In this document: one piece after another, positions 28,606-36,479 of the stretch
Layout of the letters: every line of letters begins with the position of its first letter
How positions within the stretch are numbered: position 1 is the stretch's first letter
Assembly: GCF_002741105.1 (NCBI RefSeq)
Contig: NZ_NIQU01000001.1
Location: forward strand, 124,001 to 188,000
Length of the DNA stretch: 64,000 nt
Direction: 5' to 3'
Source: Pseudomonas sediminis
Lineage (GTDB): Bacteria > Pseudomonadota > Gammaproteobacteria > Pseudomonadales > Pseudomonadaceae
The notes under the pieces: generated by a model
Told to the model about the DNA's origin: nothing
The model's database searches: none
Seen by the model: the letters and a program-made list of their open reading frames with translations, nothing else
Program-made: the position numbers and the translations under genes

Positions 28606-29493
28606 ATGAGGCCAGAAACCGCAGTCGTCGAGATCAACAGGAAGCACAACGTACACACGGAGTTCTACGGCAATCCGGCAGCAAGCAAGACCATCATCCT
28701 GGTCAACGGCTCTCTGGCGACCACCGCCTCGTTCGCGCAAACGATCAAATACCTGCAGCCGCAGTTCAACGTGGTGGCTTTCGACCTGCCCTATGCCGGC
28801 CAGTCGAAGCCCTACAACAGCGACTTCACGCCCATCAGCAAGGAAGACGAAGCGGCGATCCTGCTGCACCTGATCGACCTCTACGGTGCCAACTACCTGA
28901 TGTCCTTCTCCTGGGGCGGTGTCGCCTCCATGCTCGCCCTGGCCCAACGCCCGGCGACGCTGGAGAAGGCCGCCATCTGCTCCTTCTCGCCTATCCTCAA
29001 CGTGCCGATGCTCGACTACCTGCACAAGGGCCTGCGCTTCTTGAACGCAGTGGATCGCGACAACGTCGCCCTGCTGGTCAACAGCACCATCGGCAAGCAC
29101 CTGCCGTCGCTGTTCAAGCGCTTCAACCACAAGCACGTCAGCACCCTGGATGAACACGAATACCGGCAGATGTACGCGCACATCAAACAGGTGCTGAGCA
29201 TGGAGGCGCACTGCAGCATGGAATGCCTGCAGGCCATCGACATCCCGCTGATATTCGTCAACGGCGACCGTGACGAATACACCTCGGTGGAAGACGCCTG
29301 CCTATTCGCCCAGCACATCGACCACGCCCAGTTCGCCGTGATCGACGATGCCGGCCACTTCCTCGACATGGAACACAAGGCCGCCTGGCTGCAGAGCCAA
29401 CGCGTACTGCTGGACTTCTTCAACGCCCCCAGCAAACGCCTGCAACTGCCAGTCAAAGGCGACCTGCGCGACCTCCAGGCCATGGCGGTATGA
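28606..29493 (+). CDS. phaG: (R)-3-hydroxyacyl-ACP:CoA transacylase/thioesterase PhaG
   Basis: A 295-residue alpha/beta-hydrolase of the PhaG/RhlA family. Family hallmarks are the opening with TEFYGNP, then ILVNGSLATTASFAQTIKYL, the nucleophile elbow FSWGGV (Ser about 102), the segment TIGKHLPSLFKRFNHKHVSTLDEHEY, and the acid/His end of the triad in DEYTSVEDA and DAGHFLDME. These segments agree better with PhaG than with RhlA as I recall both sequences. PhaG diverts 3-hydroxyacyl-ACP from fatty-acid synthesis towards medium-chain polyhydroxyalkanoate. It is transcribed alone. Confidence 0.85.
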   Translation: MRPETAVVEINRKHNVHTEFYGNPAASKTIILVNGSLATTASFAQTIKYLQPQFNVVAFDLPYAGQSKPYNSDFTPISKEDEAAILLHLIDLYGANYLMSFSWGGVASMLALAQRPATLEKAAICSFSPILNVPMLDYLHKGLRFLNAVDRDNVALLVNSTIGKHLPSLFKRFNHKHVSTLDEHEYRQMYAHIKQVLSMEAHCSMECLQAIDIPLIFVNGDRDEYTSVEDACLFAQHIDHAQFAVIDDAGHFLDMEHKAAWLQSQRVLLDFFNAPSKRLQLPVKGDLRDLQAMAV

Positions 29494-29578: not shown

Positions 29579-29652
29579 GCGGGTGTCGTATAATGGTAAT
29601 ACCCTAGCTTCCCAAGCTAGAGCCGTGGGTTCGATTCCCATCACCCGCTCCA
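29579..29652 (+). tRNA. tRNA-Gly (anticodon CCC)
   Basis: A 74-nt cloverleaf including encoded CCA. Acceptor arms are GCGGGTG/CACCCGC, the anticodon stem CTAGC/GCTAG, the loop TTCCCAA with CCC at 29611-29613, and the T-arm GTGGGTTCGATTCCCAT. A TATAAAG box lies just upstream. Its 3' end from 29627 is repeated at 35131, marking it as the insertion site of the island that follows. Confidence 0.97.
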
Positions 29653-29662
29653 GACAGCCTAT

Positions 29663-29694
29663 AAAAAGCCCCGTCATCACTGACGGGGCTTTTT
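29663..29694 (+). terminator. Terminator of the tRNA-Gly gene
   Basis: AAAAAGCCCCGTCA-TCAC-TGACGGGGCTTTTT is a perfect stem with a T-tract. Its near-copy at 35167-35198 belongs to the right end of the island. Confidence 0.92.
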
Positions 29695-29859
29695 CGTTTC
29701 TAGCGTTTGAAGGGCTTGACCGCAAGGGTTTGAGCCGGGAAAGATGGCGCGCTACAGTCAGGTGGTAAACGACTAGCCGGTTTTGAAGCGGCAGCAGGAG
29801 ACGTACTGTTTACGGGATTGTTGTACAGCAATGGTGCCGATGATATCTTTGAGCCACTG

Positions 29860-30004
29860 TCTTAGGGACAGAACGGTGCCCCTAAAATGGGTTAATGCTC
29901 ATAAATGGCTGTAAGGCGAATCCCAAACCTTACAGAAGAGTGCGGATAATTACTTTTATCAAGGTTGGCACCGTGGAAGGCCCGAGCACTGCTTGGGCCT
30001 TTTG
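29860..30004 (+). ncRNA. Candidate structured RNA upstream of the reverse transcriptase, ended by a terminator hairpin
   Basis: Long-range pairing CGGTGCC (29874-29880) with GGCACCG (29967-29973) encloses the perfect 8-bp hairpin CTGTAAGG/CCTTACAG (29909-29935). A terminator-like hairpin AGGCCC-AGC/GCT-GGGCCT with TTTT follows (29978-30003) and ends only 19 nt before the RT start codon. Defence RTs (some DRT types) and retrons carry a template RNA in this position. The 5' end and function are unproven. Confidence 0.5.
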
Positions 30005-30022
30005 TTATAAGGAGAGTACAAA

Positions 30023-31516
30023 ATGGACTTCCAAGAAAAAGTACAGCAAGTAATAATCGAGCAAGCCGAAGAAAAAATCAGAGAATTTCACGAATATCAC
30101 AATTTCCTACACCTAGATTTAACCCGAAAAGGGGAAAGGCTAGGATTAAAACTCCGCAAAACCATCAAAACCCCGGAGTCTTGGAATAGCAATCGGCTTT
30201 TCGATCCTTTTTATGTACGCAGGCGCGCAGGCAACATAGCCAGATCAATTACAAAAAAAATCATATCTGGAACGTATCAGCCCAACCCAGCTTATCAACG
30301 GAAAGTTCCTAAGAAAGGCGGTGGATTCAGAGTAATTTCTGAATACGAAATTCCAGATACCGCTATATCCCGCCTATTTTATAAAGGCCTCCTCGGTAAG
30401 AACAGACATCGCTTTAGCTCCTTCTCTTACGCGTACCGTAACGACCGAAATGTTCATTTCGCAATTCAAGATATTGATGTTGATATCAAACAATACACTA
30501 GACTCTTTATCGCTGAATTTGACTTCTCAGATTTTTTCGGATCTATCAGCCATGATTATCTTAGAAACCAGTTCAGCAGAAATGGCTTTCTGGTAAGTGA
30601 AACTGATCAGAAGGTCATAGATGCCTTTCTGACATCTTATGGAAAAAAAGGCATCCCACAGGGAACATCTATATCTCTCTTCCTCGCTAATATGGTTTGC
30701 TGGGAGTTAGACAAAAAGCTAGAAAGACTCGGTGTAAAATTCGCTCGCTATGCGGACGATACAGTCATATGGACACCTGATTACTCGAAAGCTTGCGAAA
30801 GCTTCACGCTCATAGAAGAATTTTCTAGGGAGACCGGAATCCGTATAAACGCTTCGAAATCTGCGGGCATCAGTCTTCTTGCACCAAAGGGCATGCCAAC
30901 TGAGTTAGCATCCAAAAGTCATTTCGACTTTCTGGGATACTCGCTATCGACGGACTATGTCTCAATCAAAGAGTCAGCGGTAAGCAAAATCAAATCAAAC
31001 ATCTCATACATTCTATTCAAACACCTTATACAACCACTAAACACTTCAAACTTGAAAAGTGTAAAAATACCATCAAACAGCAAAGATGAATCCTTACTAG
31101 CAGCCATATGCGAAGTAAGAAGATATCTATACGGAAATCTTACAATCGCACAAATCCAAGACTACCTTAATGGCAAGACAAAAAGAATTAGCTTCAAAGG
31201 CTTGATGAGCTACTACCCTTTGATAAACAACACCGAGCAACTAAAGGCACTTGACGGCTGGCTAGTATCAGCAATCCACCGAGCCGTACAAAAGCGAAGC
31301 AAACTCTTAATAAAGCACAATTTCAATCGCCAATACATGTTCCCTTTCAACGTCAAGAAAAAAGACATTGTGGCAACCTACAGAACTCAAGTCATAAAAA
31401 GAAAACCACTACTTGAAGTACCAAGCCTCTCGCTTCTATATGCCGCATTGAAATTAGCAATCTTCAACCATGGCATCGAGAAGGTAATGAGTGCTAAGTC
31501 ATTAGAATATTATTAA
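30023..31516 (+). CDS. Reverse transcriptase of the unknown/defence-associated (UG/DRT-like) kind
   Basis: A 497-residue RT with motifs in order: PDTAISRLFYKGLL (111-124), catalytic aspartates in FIAEFDFSDFFGSIS (162-176), IPQGTSISLFLANM (211-224), ARYADDTVIW (241-250, YADD), GIRINASKS (272-280) and FDFLGY (301-306). From about 355 to 440 an alpha-helical thumb-like region (GLMSYYPL ... LDGWLVSAIHRAVQKRSK) recalls the maturase thumb. No HNH endonuclease, no DGR-type LGNxTSQ and no retron VTG motif are seen. These absences point to an unclassified or DRT-type RT rather than group II intron, DGR or retron. The ribosome-binding site GGAGAG precedes ATG 30023. Confidence 0.85.
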   Translation: MDFQEKVQQVIIEQAEEKIREFHEYHNFLHLDLTRKGERLGLKLRKTIKTPESWNSNRLFDPFYVRRRAGNIARSITKKIISGTYQPNPAYQRKVPKKGGGFRVISEYEIPDTAISRLFYKGLLGKNRHRFSSFSYAYRNDRNVHFAIQDIDVDIKQYTRLFIAEFDFSDFFGSISHDYLRNQFSRNGFLVSETDQKVIDAFLTSYGKKGIPQGTSISLFLANMVCWELDKKLERLGVKFARYADDTVIWTPDYSKACESFTLIEEFSRETGIRINASKSAGISLLAPKGMPTELASKSHFDFLGYSLSTDYVSIKESAVSKIKSNISYILFKHLIQPLNTSNLKSVKIPSNSKDESLLAAICEVRRYLYGNLTIAQIQDYLNGKTKRISFKGLMSYYPLINNTEQLKALDGWLVSAIHRAVQKRSKLLIKHNFNRQYMFPFNVKKKDIVATYRTQVIKRKPLLEVPSLSLLYAALKLAIFNHGIEKVMSAKSLEYY

Positions 31517-31605
31517 TCGCACGCAGCATGTCAAAAAGAGCATCAAGGGGAAATTAATAATGGATCAAAAGTCGCACAGCTAGGCTATGTGATCATTTTA
31601 ACTGA

Positions 31606-32505
31606 TTAATTTTTTGGGTAGGGATAAATTAAATCCATACTTTTCTCCCCCGCAACACAAACTTGGCTTGCCAAAAAATAACCTTTAATGGCGTCATGCC
31701 CATTCAATGGGCCGCAGTCCGATTCTAAAACATACCGTTTCAGGTGATGATTTAAACTATTGGTGACAACGTCAGCCAAAATCGACAAACTTGAATCAAC
31801 TATCTCAACGCGACCCGAGCTATCCTGCAATAATTTAAACCTGAAATCACCAGCATCAACATTAACATTTACCTCCACACCAAAATTCCTTACCTCACGC
31901 GTCTCAAAATGATAATGACGCCCCTTCAAAATACCCCTAGAATTTATATTATGATACCTTTCTATTGATCTTGAATATTGATCAAAAAGCATATCATCAA
32001 CTCTATCTGTCTTTACCAAGCCTAACAAAGGCTGATTAAGGACGTGCAAAGAAAAACCCATAGCCTTGCTGTAAAAATTAAAGAAAGCTTCAACCTGAGC
32101 ATTCATCGTAAACCTAGATATATTTGAGGAGAGTCCGACACCTTGCCTCTTCATATTAACAACAGCGGACTCAATACTCTCCTTAAGCTCAAGGTATCTC
32201 AGGTAAAGCGGCTGAAAATAGTTAGCGCCATATACCAATGGAATATCATGCATTTTAATAAAGCTTAAAACATCCTCACGAATTAATTCCCGACCCACGC
32301 CCATATCAGCCACATGAAACTTACCTCCCTCCTCCAAAAGCCTGTAACGATCACTTAGATAATCACAGAATCTAACAACCTCATGCATGACGTACCCAGA
32401 AACAATAAGTCCAGCAACAAGAGTAAATTCACCACGGTATTTTTCCGGGCTATCGACATATCCAAGACGACCAGCCTCATCACAATAAAATTCGACCTCA
32501 ATCAT
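31606..32505 (-). CDS. DUF3800-like protein in the RT island
   Basis: A 299-residue protein. The opening EVEFYCDEAGRLGYVDSPEKYRGEFTLVAGLIVSGYVMHEV matches the DUF3800 pattern (a D-E-x-G near the start of a first strand, then a second hydrophobic strand), and SSLSILADVVTNSLNHHLKR resembles its later Q/L-x-x-A-D helix. DUF3800 is thought to have an RNase H-like fold and is frequent in defence and mobile regions. ATG at 32505 is preceded by AGGTGA; in-frame upstream codons cross repeat DNA and are not used. It is convergent with the RT gene (89 bp between the stops). Confidence 0.6.
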   Translation of the reverse strand: MIEVEFYCDEAGRLGYVDSPEKYRGEFTLVAGLIVSGYVMHEVVRFCDYLSDRYRLLEEGGKFHVADMGVGRELIREDVLSFIKMHDIPLVYGANYFQPLYLRYLELKESIESAVVNMKRQGVGLSSNISRFTMNAQVEAFFNFYSKAMGFSLHVLNQPLLGLVKTDRVDDMLFDQYSRSIERYHNINSRGILKGRHYHFETREVRNFGVEVNVNVDAGDFRFKLLQDSSGRVEIVDSSLSILADVVTNSLNHHLKRYVLESDCGPLNGHDAIKGYFLASQVCVAGEKSMDLIYPYPKN

Positions 32506-32781
32506 AATTTCACCTAAGCAGATCAGGGCGATTGCAAAAAAATCAAAAAAATGGGACAGATTCTGAGGAATCCCCACACAATATCCATGCAGATCCAAAA
32601 AGGTCAAAAAAGGGGACAGATTTATTTATGGCGCAGCGCAATCAGCCTGAAAATAAATCTGTCCCCTTTTCGAGCCCGGCCTATGACGAAGCCAACAGAA
32701 ACTTGAGCCAACCCAACGCGGGATAGCGATCACCCAGGAAGCAGCTAGGCGCTGGTATGCCCGAAAGGAGCTCGGTACACC
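32506..32781. other. Intergenic region of the island with repeat DNA
   Basis: It contains the promoter of the leftward DUF3800-like gene, a partial GGGACAGATT unit (about 32553) and a perfect inverted repeat (32608-32670). From about 32671 the base composition returns to host-like GC for roughly 100 bp, which suggests the island was assembled from pieces. Confidence 0.5.
32608..32670. repeat. Perfect 20-bp inverted repeat AAAAGGGGACAGATTTATTT
   Basis: AAAAGGGGACAGATTTATTT (32608-32627) and its exact reverse complement (32651-32670) are separated by 23 bp. This GGGGACAGATTTATTT unit is a dispersed repeat of gammaproteobacteria, often seen near IS200-like/REP-associated transposase genes. No transposase is present here. 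Confidence 0.8.
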
Positions 32782-33240
32782 ATGAAGAAACTGATATGCA
32801 CCATCCTGTGCCTGATCGCAGTCACGCAGGCCAAGGCAGCCGAAGAAGTAGCCTTCTATGTCGGACAAGCCCATGACGAATGGGCTTTCAAAGTAACAGG
32901 GAAAGGTCGAGCGCTAGCGGGAAAGAGCCTTATCTACACAAGGCTCGACGAGCTGCAGATCGTAAACAATCCAAAACACTCAAAAACCAGACACATAGAA
33001 AGTGTTGAAGTCGCCTACGTATACGCCACCGACAATGGTGGCTGGAACTTCAAATCAGTTAACAGCTTTCGCCCCATCAATAGAAATATTCGCTCAGGGG
33101 AGAAGCTAATAATCAAAAACCTCGAAGCGGGAATGGAAATAGTCAACCTAAGAGCTAGTGATTACTGGGTACTTGTCACTCTCTGGATGAGAAAGAAAGA
33201 AACCGTACACGCCCATTCAAAAATTGGCACATTCAAGTAA
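32782..33240 (+). CDS. Secreted protein of unknown function (RT island)
   Basis: A 152-residue protein with signal peptide MKKLICTILCLIAVTQAKA. The mature part (about 133 residues) alternates short strands (EVAFYVGQAHDEWAFKVTGK, ESVEVAYVYATDNGGWNFKSV) and contains no cysteine. No family is recognised. A good AAAGGAGCTC site precedes the ATG. The gene begins GC-rich and becomes A-rich towards its end, unlike host genes. Confidence 0.65.
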   Translation: MKKLICTILCLIAVTQAKAAEEVAFYVGQAHDEWAFKVTGKGRALAGKSLIYTRLDELQIVNNPKHSKTRHIESVEVAYVYATDNGGWNFKSVNSFRPINRNIRSGEKLIIKNLEAGMEIVNLRASDYWVLVTLWMRKKETVHAHSKIGTFK

Positions 33241-33268
33241 CCACACTAAAAAAAGCCACCATAAGAAG

Positions 33269-34186
33269 CTACCTAATCATATCACGCAAAACGTTCCGTG
33301 CTTCCCCCTTAAAAGCAATGCGAGGCAGAGCCACACGAATTCTATCCCCTTTAACTATGCCATAATGCTTTACATACCCTGGATCAATACCCACAACATA
33401 CTCGTAAGCATCCTTATAATATTGCTTCTCCCCCGCCAACAACAGTGCCTCAGAACCACTAAAAACCTTATCCACCGCATTAATAAATTGCCACCTATTA
33501 CACTGACTCAAATAGACTTGCAAGTTACCATAGGCATCTTCATCATAAAAAACCAGTACACTAGATGGTGAAATAGGCAGCATAAACACCTTTGCACTTA
33601 TTGCAGACGAATACTTATCACGAACCACTACATTACCATGGTCAAAAAAAACTACAGGATTATCGCCAATAATAAACCTATCATCGTCCGACCTAAAAAC
33701 TGTCATTCTTTTCTTTAATAAAATTTCTTTATAAAGCTCCGAGCTAGGCTTGACATGTTCCAAAAAGAAACTTTTCACGTCACCATCGAATATCTTGAAA
33801 TCGCTCGACACATCATCAACAAACCCCTCTGCAAGTCTTTTCAAAGCATCCAACACATATGGAACTCGACATATCTGCGAGGCTACATAAATTGCAATCC
33901 CTTCCATCTCAACCGCATCGAGAATGGGCAAACGCTCGCTCAGCAGAATCTTTCTAACTATAATTGCAGCATCGCTATCAATCTTATTAAACAAATCCAC
34001 CTCAAGAGATTTATTCTGCCCCTTATAATCGTAAAATTTATTTATACAAGCCAACCCTCTTAAGCCTGACGGATGCTCACCCATACCGTTATCTTTACTA
34101 TAAAAGAAAAGCTTTTCTTTTTTCCCGTAACAAAATGATTTAAGAATACCTCTAGGCAGGTAATGATGACTTATAGGTTTACTCAT
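33269..34186 (-). CDS. DUF4238-like protein in the RT island
   Basis: A 305-residue protein opening SKPISHHYLPRGILKSFCYGKKEKLFFYSKDNG, the pattern of DUF4238 (H-Y-x-P-R-x-x-L-x-x-F). Other family-like features are the N-terminal CINKFYDYKG segment and the late DDDRFIIGDNPVVFF. DUF4238 has no established biochemical role and is common in accessory DNA. Codon use is very A+T-rich. It is convergent with the secreted-protein gene, with 28 bp between the stops. Confidence 0.7.
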   Translation of the reverse strand: MSKPISHHYLPRGILKSFCYGKKEKLFFYSKDNGMGEHPSGLRGLACINKFYDYKGQNKSLEVDLFNKIDSDAAIIVRKILLSERLPILDAVEMEGIAIYVASQICRVPYVLDALKRLAEGFVDDVSSDFKIFDGDVKSFFLEHVKPSSELYKEILLKKRMTVFRSDDDRFIIGDNPVVFFDHGNVVVRDKYSSAISAKVFMLPISPSSVLVFYDEDAYGNLQVYLSQCNRWQFINAVDKVFSGSEALLLAGEKQYYKDAYEYVVGIDPGYVKHYGIVKGDRIRVALPRIAFKGEARNVLRDMIR

Positions 34187-34263
34187 GAGACCCCACTGGA
34201 GATAAGTATAATATGAGGAGAGAATCCTTTACCGGAAGAAATAAATCCACTCTTTATCATGTA

Positions 34264-34905
34264 CTACTGAGATAGCGAATCATCATAGATACGCTGACTG
34301 AGGAAGTATGTTTCAATGGCATATTCTCCGGAACCCTTGAGAATTTTTATAACCAACCCCATTTCCGCTTCACTGCCAGGCTTTTCGTCAGTGCAGATGG
34401 TACCGGTTTTGAAGTTTTCCGACCCAGACAACTCAACTCGAACAGCACTTGCCCCTGGCCCACTACTCATCCACGAAAGGTCTATTTCGCTCGGGGGCTG
34501 CGCCACGGCCAAATAGCGCTTACAAGTACCACTCGGCAAATTGAACCTCAGAATTCCTTGACCTAGCACGGTAAGTGTTCCTCGTTTGAAACTCTCTGGC
34601 CTTGAAGCATGAGCATAGGAATTGCGCAAATCGGCCAAATAGTCATCAAAGTTCACCACAGCGCCGGGATCTGGAGTAGGCTTTTGATTGAAGAAAGACC
34701 TTACCACCTCACTTGTTAAACCAAGCCCGGCCAGAACAAGCGAAAAAATCATAAACCTATTGATTGCTGCAAGAATAGATTCTCGTGGCTCTTTCGTATG
34801 CTGCTCCTGCAGCAGCAGAAAGTAGGCAAGTAACGCCAGCAAGAAACCCAGCCCAATTACGCCATAACTAAGAATGGTAGCCGGCTCGATTGTTCCGAAC
34901 TTCAT
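34264..34905 (-). CDS. Small membrane protein of unknown function (RT island)
   Basis: A 213-residue protein with two N-terminal membrane helices (ILSYGVIGLGFLLALLAYFLLL and INRFMIFSLVLAGLGLTSEVV) followed by a soluble domain of about 150 residues with YLAVAQPPSEIDLSW and a strand-rich end. No family is recognised. Placement beside the DUF4238-like gene and in the same direction suggests a shared cargo unit, with a 77-bp gap. Confidence 0.6.
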   Translation of the reverse strand: MKFGTIEPATILSYGVIGLGFLLALLAYFLLLQEQHTKEPRESILAAINRFMIFSLVLAGLGLTSEVVRSFFNQKPTPDPGAVVNFDDYLADLRNSYAHASRPESFKRGTLTVLGQGILRFNLPSGTCKRYLAVAQPPSEIDLSWMSSGPGASAVRVELSGSENFKTGTICTDEKPGSEAEMGLVIKILKGSGEYAIETYFLSQRIYDDSLSQ

Positions 34906-35130
34906 GAGGCGCCTCTCATATTGATATTCGAACCTGGCAGCCTAGCGATGTCGAAAAAACGACACACCAAGGACTGGTGGCCAGAAGCTAGCCATAGCAG
35001 CTAAACATGTCTAGCGCCCGTGTCGAAAAAGTGTCGAAGACACTGCAAGAGATAGCGGAAAAATGCCGTCTTGGGCAGGCTGCAAGGCCAGTAAAGCCGG
35101 GTTTTGCAGATCACAGCCAGACTCTGAAAA
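34906..35130. other. Right end of the island without a clear gene
   Basis: It holds several copies of a GTGTCGAAAAA/GTCGAAG-type motif (34949, 35021 and 35031) next to the right repeat, possibly integrase arm sites. The last frame before the repeat (…KVSKTLQEIAEKCRLGQAARPVKPG) could be the tail of a lost integrase, but no integrase motif remains. Confidence 0.35.
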
Positions 35131-35162
35131 GGGTTCGATTCCCATCACCCGCTCCAGACAGC
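35131..35162. repeat. Right attachment repeat (attR-like) of the tRNA-Gly island
   Basis: An exact 32-bp copy of 29627-29658, from GGGTTCGATT through CACCCGCTCCA to GACAGC, i.e. the tRNA 3' end with no upstream tRNA body. Confidence 0.92.
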
Positions 35163-35166
35163 AAAG

Positions 35167-35198
35167 AAAAAGCCCCGTCATCATTGACGGGGCTTTTT
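35167..35198 (+). terminator. Terminator copy at the island's right border
   Basis: AAAAAGCCCCGTCA-TCAT-TGACGGGGCTTTTT differs from the hairpin behind the intact tRNA only in the loop. Confidence 0.9.
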
Positions 35199-35345
35199 CG
35201 TTTTACTACTCCAGTTTTTACTTACTGCCACGGCCTCTCCTCCTCCGGGTTAAAGTCATCCTGACCACTCACCCATTTCCCCGGAACTTCTGCCTCCCAA
35301 CGCCACCAGAACCGTATATGTCTTTTTTTCTGGAGGCCCCTGGCG

Positions 35346-36479
35346 ATGGAACAGTGGAATATCTGGCTTGAACGCGATGTCTGGCTCAACGTGGCGATTG
35401 TTCTGGTCGCCACGGCGCTGATCTACAGCGTGCTGCGTACCCTGGTGAATACCCTGCACAAGCGTCTGAAGGCCGGGTCTGCTGACCAGGAGAGCAGTTG
35501 GTCACACTTCATCGCCATGGTCATCGGCCGCACCAGCCGCGTGCTGTTGTTGGCGTTTTCCCTGCTGTTGGCGTTGCGTCTGGCGGACTTGCCGCTCGCC
35601 TGGCAAAGCGCGCTGAGCCATACCTGGTTCGTCGCCCTAGCCCTGCAGGTAGCGTTGTGGGTCGATACTGGTGTGCGCCTGTGGTCGCGCAGCCTGGTGG
35701 TAGGCAAGAGCGGCGGCAGCTACAACCCGGTGATGACCACCATCATCAGCATCATGATTCTGATCGTGGTGTGGTCGGTGATGCTGCTGTCGATCCTGGC
35801 CAATCTGGGGGTGGATATCACCGCGCTGGTGGCCAGCCTGGGTGTCGGTGGTATCGCCGTGGCGCTGGCGGTGCAGACGGTGCTCAGCGATGTGTTCGCG
35901 TCACTATCGATTGGCGTCGACAAGCCGTTCGAGATCGGTGATTTCGTGGTGTTCGGCGAAGTCGCCGGCTCCATCGAGCATATCGGTCTGAAGACCACGC
36001 GTATTCGTAGCCTCAGCGGTGAGCAGGTGGTGTGCGCCAACGCCGATCTGCTGCGCCAGATCGTGCATAACTACAAGCGCATGAACACCCGCCGCATCGT
36101 CTTCAAGTTCGGCATCAATTACGACACGCCCAGCGCCAAGGTGCGCCAGGTGTCGGAAAAGGTAGGCGATATCATCCGCGCCACGCCCCAGGCCCGCTTC
36201 GACCGCGCACATTTTCTCGGCTTCGATGAAAGTCAGCTGACCTTCGAGGTGGTGTATATCGTGCTGACCTCGGACTACAACCAGTACATGGACATTCAGC
36301 AGGAGATCAACCTGCAACTGCTCGATGCCCTGCGCGAGCTGGACGTGCGCTTCGCCCTGCCCCGCCGCGATCTGCGCCTGGTGGGCGAGAGGATGCCGGT
36401 ACTCAAGGTCGATGGCCTGCCGCAACCGGCCGAGGCTAACGAAAGCACCAGCGATGGCCGCCTGCCACGCTTCAGCTAG
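35346..36479 (+). CDS. Mechanosensitive ion channel, MscS family
   Basis: A 377-residue channel. There are four to five N-terminal helices, then the pore helix VDITALVASLGVGGIAVALAVQTVLSDVFASLSIGVDKPFEIGDFVV, which is the MscS TM3 plus beta-domain signature, and a cytoplasmic vestibule region to the end. It would open under membrane tension to release solutes during osmotic downshift. It is larger than minimal MscS (286 residues) because of extra N-terminal helices. Confidence 0.9.
   Translation: MEQWNIWLERDVWLNVAIVLVATALIYSVLRTLVNTLHKRLKAGSADQESSWSHFIAMVIGRTSRVLLLAFSLLLALRLADLPLAWQSALSHTWFVALALQVALWVDTGVRLWSRSLVVGKSGGSYNPVMTTIISIMILIVVWSVMLLSILANLGVDITALVASLGVGGIAVALAVQTVLSDVFASLSIGVDKPFEIGDFVVFGEVAGSIEHIGLKTTRIRSLSGEQVVCANADLLRQIVHNYKRMNTRRIVFKFGINYDTPSAKVRQVSEKVGDIIRATPQARFDRAHFLGFDESQLTFEVVYIVLTSDYNQYMDIQQEINLQLLDALRELDVRFALPRRDLRLVGERMPVLKVDGLPQPAEANESTSDGRLPRFS

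Follow-up and report, generated by a model that had tools for sequence, protein, structure and literature searches.

DRT9 (UG28), described for SenDRT9 and PsaDRT9, is a defence system that makes poly-dA and aborts infection, with a reverse transcriptase (RT) and an ncRNA as its only components (PMC12483538, PMC12489045). The RT needs the ncRNA encoded upstream, in which a U tract is universally conserved (PMC12483538). The priming tyrosines of SenDRT9 are Y496 and Y498, and one of them, either, is enough for activity against T2. Two groups of mobile elements are also relevant here. Some Pf phages integrate into tRNA-Gly(CCC) and carry defence genes in their accessory region (PMC7549136, PMC11878078); Pf integrases specific for this tRNA exist, and integrase types track their sites (PMC7549136). 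P4-like satellites carry defence hotspots, and DUF4238, from the P2 hotspot, is a single-gene defence against T7 (PMC9122126).

Here we describe an island in the window, by which we mean the whole 64-kb stretch of Pseudomonas sediminis DNA that was analysed. It carries a DRT9 system and lies at tRNA-Gly(CCC). We consider it very likely that the island is composite, a defence island without integrase at the Pf attachment site in which the accessory arm of a Pf-type element remains and the core of that element was replaced by a cassette of DRT9 and a DUF3800-like gene, and that its DRT9 would act as published. The DRT9 system is already known; the location and packaging of the island are mildly new. 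The features are listed in Table 1.

Table 1. Features of the island and its flanks, in window coordinates.
Feature	Position	Strand	Basis
alpha/beta hydrolase, conserved left flank	28606–29493	+	Pfam Abhydrolase; same place in relatives
tRNA-Gly(CCC), integration target	29579–29652	+	ARAGORN; Pf-tRNA-Gly phages have their attB in this tRNA (PMC7549136)
Left copy of 73-bp repeat (exact 32-bp core 29627–29658 and terminator)	29627–29699	+	
Left-end segment, 51 bp, followed by different cargo elsewhere	29700–29750	+	comparison with relatives
DRT9 template ncRNA	29848–29977	+	covariance model R1
3′ hairpin and T tail of ncRNA (SL6/terminator-like), GC-rich	29977–30001	+	fold
DRT9 (UG28) reverse transcriptase, 497 aa	30023–31516	+	PADLOC, PDB, alignment
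299-aa protein, remote DUF3800-like (DEAG motif)	31606–32505	-	homologue profile score and motif
Inverted repeat, 63 bp (perfect 20-bp arms AAAAGGGGACAGATTTATTT, 23-bp spacer), possible cassette boundary	32608–32670	.	
Pf-type repressor C remnant (C-terminal 17 codons, SPAYDEANRNLSQPNAG, and stop)	32673–32726	+	tblastn, DNA match
ORF152, 152-aa putative periplasmic protein	32782–33240	+	signal-peptide-like start
DUF4238 protein, known single-gene defence family	33269–34186	-	Pfam PF14022
ORF213, 213-aa putative membrane protein	34264–34905	-	two hydrophobic stretches
Conserved right end, Pf-like attachment arm (TGTCGAAAAAGTGTCGAA at 35021–35038)	34985–35130	+	
Right copy of repeat (exact 32-bp core 35131–35162 and host-type terminator 35166–35199)	35131–35203	+	
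mscS-like channel gene, conserved right flank	35346–36479	+	Pfam; same place in relatives

The reverse transcriptase and its template RNA

The PADLOC Drt9 profile matched residues 4–496 of the RT with 679 bits (E=8.5e-205), the runner-up family reaching 107 bits. Solved Salmonella DRT9 chains (PDB 9ioa, 9nlv and others) matched residues 2–496 (E=8e-180), and in an alignment four DRT9 homologues were 52–55% identical to the window RT. The YADD motif, invariant across the alignment, occupies residues 243–246, the same residue numbers as in the published enzyme (PMC12489045). By its sequence the window RT is a full-length DRT9 and an ordinary member of the family. It differs from the described systems in residing in a Pf-derived tRNA island and in its C-terminus, SLEYY, where the two tyrosines are adjacent without a spacer; most homologues have YxY and a few vary (SLYY in L154, GYYY in L127). 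Y496 is kept, while the second tyrosine stands at 497 as against 498 in SenDRT9. Because either SenDRT9 tyrosine alone suffices against T2, the SLEYY variant is probably functional.

Upstream of the RT gene lies the DRT9 ncRNA, which the earlier note on this DNA had overlooked. As in the described systems, it comprises a first hairpin, a long-range stem (ACGGUGC/GGCACCGU), a template loop (UUACUUUUA, 29950–29958) with the U4 tract at 29954–29957, and a terminator hairpin, which is found at the same position in homologues. The covariance model R1, built from 18 homologous upstream regions with the window left out, had a single match in the 64 kb, at 51.4 bits and a rough E-value of 3.1e-9. RNAalifold on these 18 regions gave 24 pairs with compensatory changes in 15 of them, and folding of the whole region upstream of the RT showed strong structure (z=-4.75). 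A pattern search for the template motif and the stem halves expected to flank it succeeded upstream of 43 of 44 DRT9 genes, a descriptive count, as the patterns were widened after sequence inspection.

Acting as published, the RT-ncRNA complex would copy the U4 template into long poly-dA, with the C-terminal tyrosines as primers. A host nuclease would clear the poly-dA until a phage factor blocks this clearance, and the ensuing build-up would kill the infected cell, i.e. abort the infection. Both the activity of the window DRT9 and its poly-dA product are predicted here from sequence.

DRT9 homologues at this identity level occurred in 3 of 399 sampled genomes of the genus, the source genome not counted. 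A scan of one genome per species across 84,980 species, queried with the alignment, yielded 38 DRT9 loci, a lower bound given that the scan is pattern-based; the genome-contig scan queried with a single RT sequence returned none. There was no close DRT9 in phage records, and plasmids gave just two matches, both more distant. An IMG/VR viral contig (L162) carries a DRT9 with intact ncRNA adjoining an Int_N integrase, together with a tRNA-Met; with this integrase and no Pf coat genes, it was not taken for a Pf-like element.

Borders of the island and Pf origin of its right part

The island borders on the sole tRNA within the window. The two copies of the repeat core are identical in 32 of 32 bp, corresponding to the last 26 bases of tRNA-Gly(CCC) and the next 6, and the match extends through the terminator to 29699 and 35203 (73 bp, 95%), much more than chance would give. 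Of the two copies, just the left one belongs to an intact tRNA gene; ARAGORN found no second one at 35131. Between the repeats the GC content is 38–46%, versus 57–67% (about 60%) outside, and GC3 of the block ORFs is 0.36–0.53 against an outside mean of 0.76. Codon adaptation of the five block ORFs ranges from 0.31 to 0.43, and the lowest value among 44 long outside ORFs, which were chosen mechanically by length and may include some that are not genes, is 0.46. The earlier note had described an AT-richer block between exact 32-bp repeats of the tRNA 3′ end and a doubled terminator, in which no gene is host-like in codon use, and all of this was confirmed. Its statement that the island is integrase-less also holds for the repeat-bounded block; we now ascribe the missing integrase to the probable loss of a Pf-type integrase/replication core. 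A promoter scan showed no enrichment over shuffles. In close relatives the hydrolase gene on the left flank has 91–98% DNA identity.

The right part of the island is of Pf origin. The repressor C remnant, overlooked in the earlier note together with the 63-bp inverted repeat, matches the repressor of Pseudomonas phage 62-2 (tblastn, E=5e-5), and the DNA at 32671–32788 is 89% identical to phage 62-2 and 84% to a Pf prophage resident in the same genome (E about 3e-27 and 4e-31). The start of ORF152 follows the repressor C gene at a distance of 55 bp, as it does in G202, one of four relatives with an integrase-bearing island at tRNA-Gly(CCC) (G202 L107, G248 L102, G177 L106, G369 L103); there the same gene follows directly behind repC with 84% DNA identity. 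The right end is 79–90% identical in relatives' islands, and 81–90% in the integrase-bearing ones. A motif related to TGTCGAAAAAGTGTCGAA is present in the PfAC13 end, and the window genome has a single TGTCGAAAAAGTGTCGAA site. It speaks against the Pf reading that the repressor tail is just 17 codons long, though the DNA match runs 116 bp. Taken together, the remnant, the placing of ORF152 as in G202 and the shared right end mark the right part (repC tail, ORF152, DUF4238, ORF213, right end and right core) as the accessory arm of a Pf-type (Inoviridae) element. With Pf phages in tRNA-Gly(CCC) (PMC7549136, PMC11878078) the island has in common the attachment tRNA with its 26–27-bp core, the right-end arm motif, and the repressor C end beside an accessory region with defence cargo. 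It differs in that the repressor C tail is the only match to Pf genes in the block, which has no integrase, Rep, excisionase, coat, CoaA or assembly genes.

The left junction has another character. In G325 (L109) the site is near-empty, comprising the tRNA, the terminator, a small putative lipoprotein gene and mscS with a single repeat copy, as the earlier note had expected of an empty site in related genomes. When the flanks of the G248 island are joined at the core, they match this site without a break (90% over 2.5 kb), and the terminator that follows the tRNA in G248, GGCCCTGTTTTTACAGGGC, comes from the element. Neither an element-borne terminator nor the arm motif, both features of the integrase-bearing islands, is present at the left junction in the window. 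Because a host-type terminator stands there instead, the junction, as far as its sequence tells, is not a canonical integrase junction. The 51-bp left-end segment is common to other integrase-less islands at the locus with 81–98% identity (G064, G008, G012, G063, G078, G304, G271 and G369). The DRT9 cassette (29751–32607) lies between this segment and the inverted repeat, which is the only full copy in the genome and borders cargo in several of the integrase-less loci. We infer that the left half arose by cassette replacement via recombination in shared flanks, not by simple integrase insertion: the integrase-to-repressor core of a Pf-type element would have been replaced by a cassette of the complete DRT9 system and the DUF3800-like ORF, and cassettes would be exchanged by recombination in the conserved flanks.

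An abundant REPIN was rejected as an explanation of the inverted repeat, which is rare in the genome. At the hotspot, a perfect inverted repeat of 53 bp, GGGACAGATTTATTT-N-AAATAAATCTGTCCC, stands between cargo cassettes (window 32608–32670; L061 2931–3002 and 3109–3173; L103 5515–5579, 6432–6496 and 10508–10572). It is rare, with 0–2 perfect copies per genome and 10 in 18 genomes, 4 of these 10 at the hotspot. In L168, L171 and L175 the copies are found in arrays that by eye resemble Rhs/polymorphic-toxin immunity regions. A role as cassette boundary or two-way terminator is possible.

Cargo genes and alternative readings

The earlier note had named a reverse transcriptase, a DUF4238-like and a DUF3800-like protein and two small envelope proteins. 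The RT is discussed above, and the DUF4238 assignment was borne out by PF14022, which matched residues 7–245 at profile positions 2–279 of 281 (93.3 bits, cut-off 27, E=2.3e-26); no solved structure was found for the family. The DUF3800 likeness stands only weakly: the 299-aa protein itself had no significant Pfam, PADLOC or PHROG match, and a homologue with 26% identity reached 16.4 bits against DUF3800 (cut-off 21), with a DE[AS]G motif in common. Relatives of this protein occur in 2 other genomes among 329 and in none of the plasmids or viral contigs, and its single-sequence structure prediction was unusable (pLDDT 32). ORF152 and ORF213 fit the proposed envelope proteins by the signal-peptide-like start of the former and the hydrophobic stretches of the latter, both read by eye; ORF213 had no family match in profile searches (PADLOC, Pfam and others).

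The earlier note did not recognise this combination of genes, and the RT proved to be a textbook DRT9 with its ncRNA, which in the publications acts alone. That the RT is instead a retron or a group II intron maturase has next to no probability. Such RTs do give weak profile matches, but the scores lie far under the curated cut-offs (133.9 bits vs 300 for the group II intron maturase, 72.9 vs 235 for retron St85), the upstream RNA fits the DRT9 covariance model, and Rfam, which reported above threshold only tRNA in the window, gave no intron. A new multi-gene defence system, in which the RT works jointly with the DUF3800-like and DUF4238 proteins and the envelope proteins, would suit the close packing of the genes in one island and the fusion of DUF3800 domains to some retron RTs (RT-DUF3800 profiles). 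We nevertheless regard it as very improbable. The genes lie in both orientations and are split by the inverted-repeat boundary and the repressor C remnant, ORF152 stands beside other cargo in G202, and published DRT9 comprises the RT and ncRNA only. The search for the RT with its neighbours elsewhere, which the earlier note had proposed, covered 40 further DRT9 loci (38 genomic, 2 on viral contigs) and found no relative of the 299-aa ORF, ORF152, DUF4238 or ORF213 in any of them. From this absence, the island reads as a collection of separate cassettes and not as a new multi-gene system.

A further question is whether the island can move. A CIME is a cis-mobilisable element without a recombinase. 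The island is likewise flanked by attachment-like repeats and has no recombinase, while its left end departs from a canonical attachment arm. Excision or transfer of the block 29653–35156 by an integrase acting in trans appears unlikely to us. Such an integrase might come from the source genome (G000), where a complete Pf-type prophage on contig C2 at about 325.7–337.4 kb (L118, L123) encodes CoaA, coat and Rep along with a 60%-identical integrase; in the island itself, the core direct repeats and the right arm are intact. However, this prophage resides at tRNA-Ser(CGA), so its integrase has another target, in line with the tracking of sites by Pf integrase types. In addition, the left end of the island has a host-type terminator and no int-side arm, and the block contains no excisionase. 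We keep to a composite island formed by cassette replacement. Its present mobility is doubtful because the resident prophage uses another attachment site and there is no arm motif at the left end. The accessory region of the prophage encodes a 493-aa putative ATPase without a Pfam family match.

Occupants of the tRNA-Gly(CCC) site in relatives

Across about a dozen species, the interval from the hydrolase and tRNA-Gly(CCC) to mscS has a differing occupant in almost every relative. The occupants include a type I-B retron RT with an ATPase (G008, L062 1926–4272, reversed orientation), a PIN_8 protein (G064), Septu PtuA/PtuB (G078), AbiTii (G202), TIR and FRG proteins (G369), an ATPase with a putative methyltransferase, the latter by eye (G271), a NACHT-like protein under the cut-off (G113) and type I restriction genes identified by eye (G012). 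The gene block of the window is not shared by these relatives; its presence in nearly all of them would, by the earlier note, have refuted that note's view. The view of a horizontally acquired, integrase-less tRNA island carrying phage defence was right, given the near-empty site and the occupant turnover. In G304 (L104 1646–3678) the slot is taken by a two-gene cassette (336 and 340 aa) without Pfam or PADLOC match, a pair of candidate defence genes of unknown kind. The tRNA-Gly of G078 (L065, L066) has also received an element of about 125 kb that encodes a tyrosine integrase of its own, and this insertion has displaced the older Septu island from the tRNA.

The integrase-bearing islands encode a tyrosine integrase, Rep, an excisionase and one or two repressor C genes, followed by cargo and the conserved right end. 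Their cargo is defence-like and different in each of the four. The integrase is 57% identical to Pf phage integrases, and Rep is 80% identical to that of Pseudomonas phage 62-2 and 55% to that of Pf1. Three measured elements are 6.1–7.4 kb long, and Pf coat, CoaA, assembly-ATPase and gp5 proteins had no match in these islands. Recent transfer, considered in view of their very similar integrases, was rejected because DNA identity in the core (86–94%) does not exceed that in the flanks (88–95%).

These coat-less elements might be Pf satellites, a suggestion we put forward tentatively and hold to be rather less than probable. They would replicate by means of their own Rep and be packaged by a helper Pf, with the slot from repC to the right end as a defence reservoir, and the island in the window would be a fixed descendant. 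The resident Pf prophage could be such a packaging helper. P4-like satellites (PMC9122126) resemble the elements of the relatives in being small and integrative, with one variable defence slot and conserved ends, and DUF4238 is among the kinds of cargo in the P2 hotspot. They differ in that the putative packaging helper here would be a filamentous Pf and not P2. In the open-access papers searched, we met no account of Pf-like elements that lack coat genes and have a defence slot, which is weak evidence.

With this analysis, an RT island that seemed unknown can be tested as a DRT9 system whose template RNA has been located. It ties a small Pseudomonas defence hotspot to a Pf attachment site and offers an explanation of why such islands can be integrase-less. 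Should the coat-less relatives prove to depend on Pf helpers for packaging, Pf phages would, like the P2-type phages with their P4 satellites, have satellites that spread defence genes.
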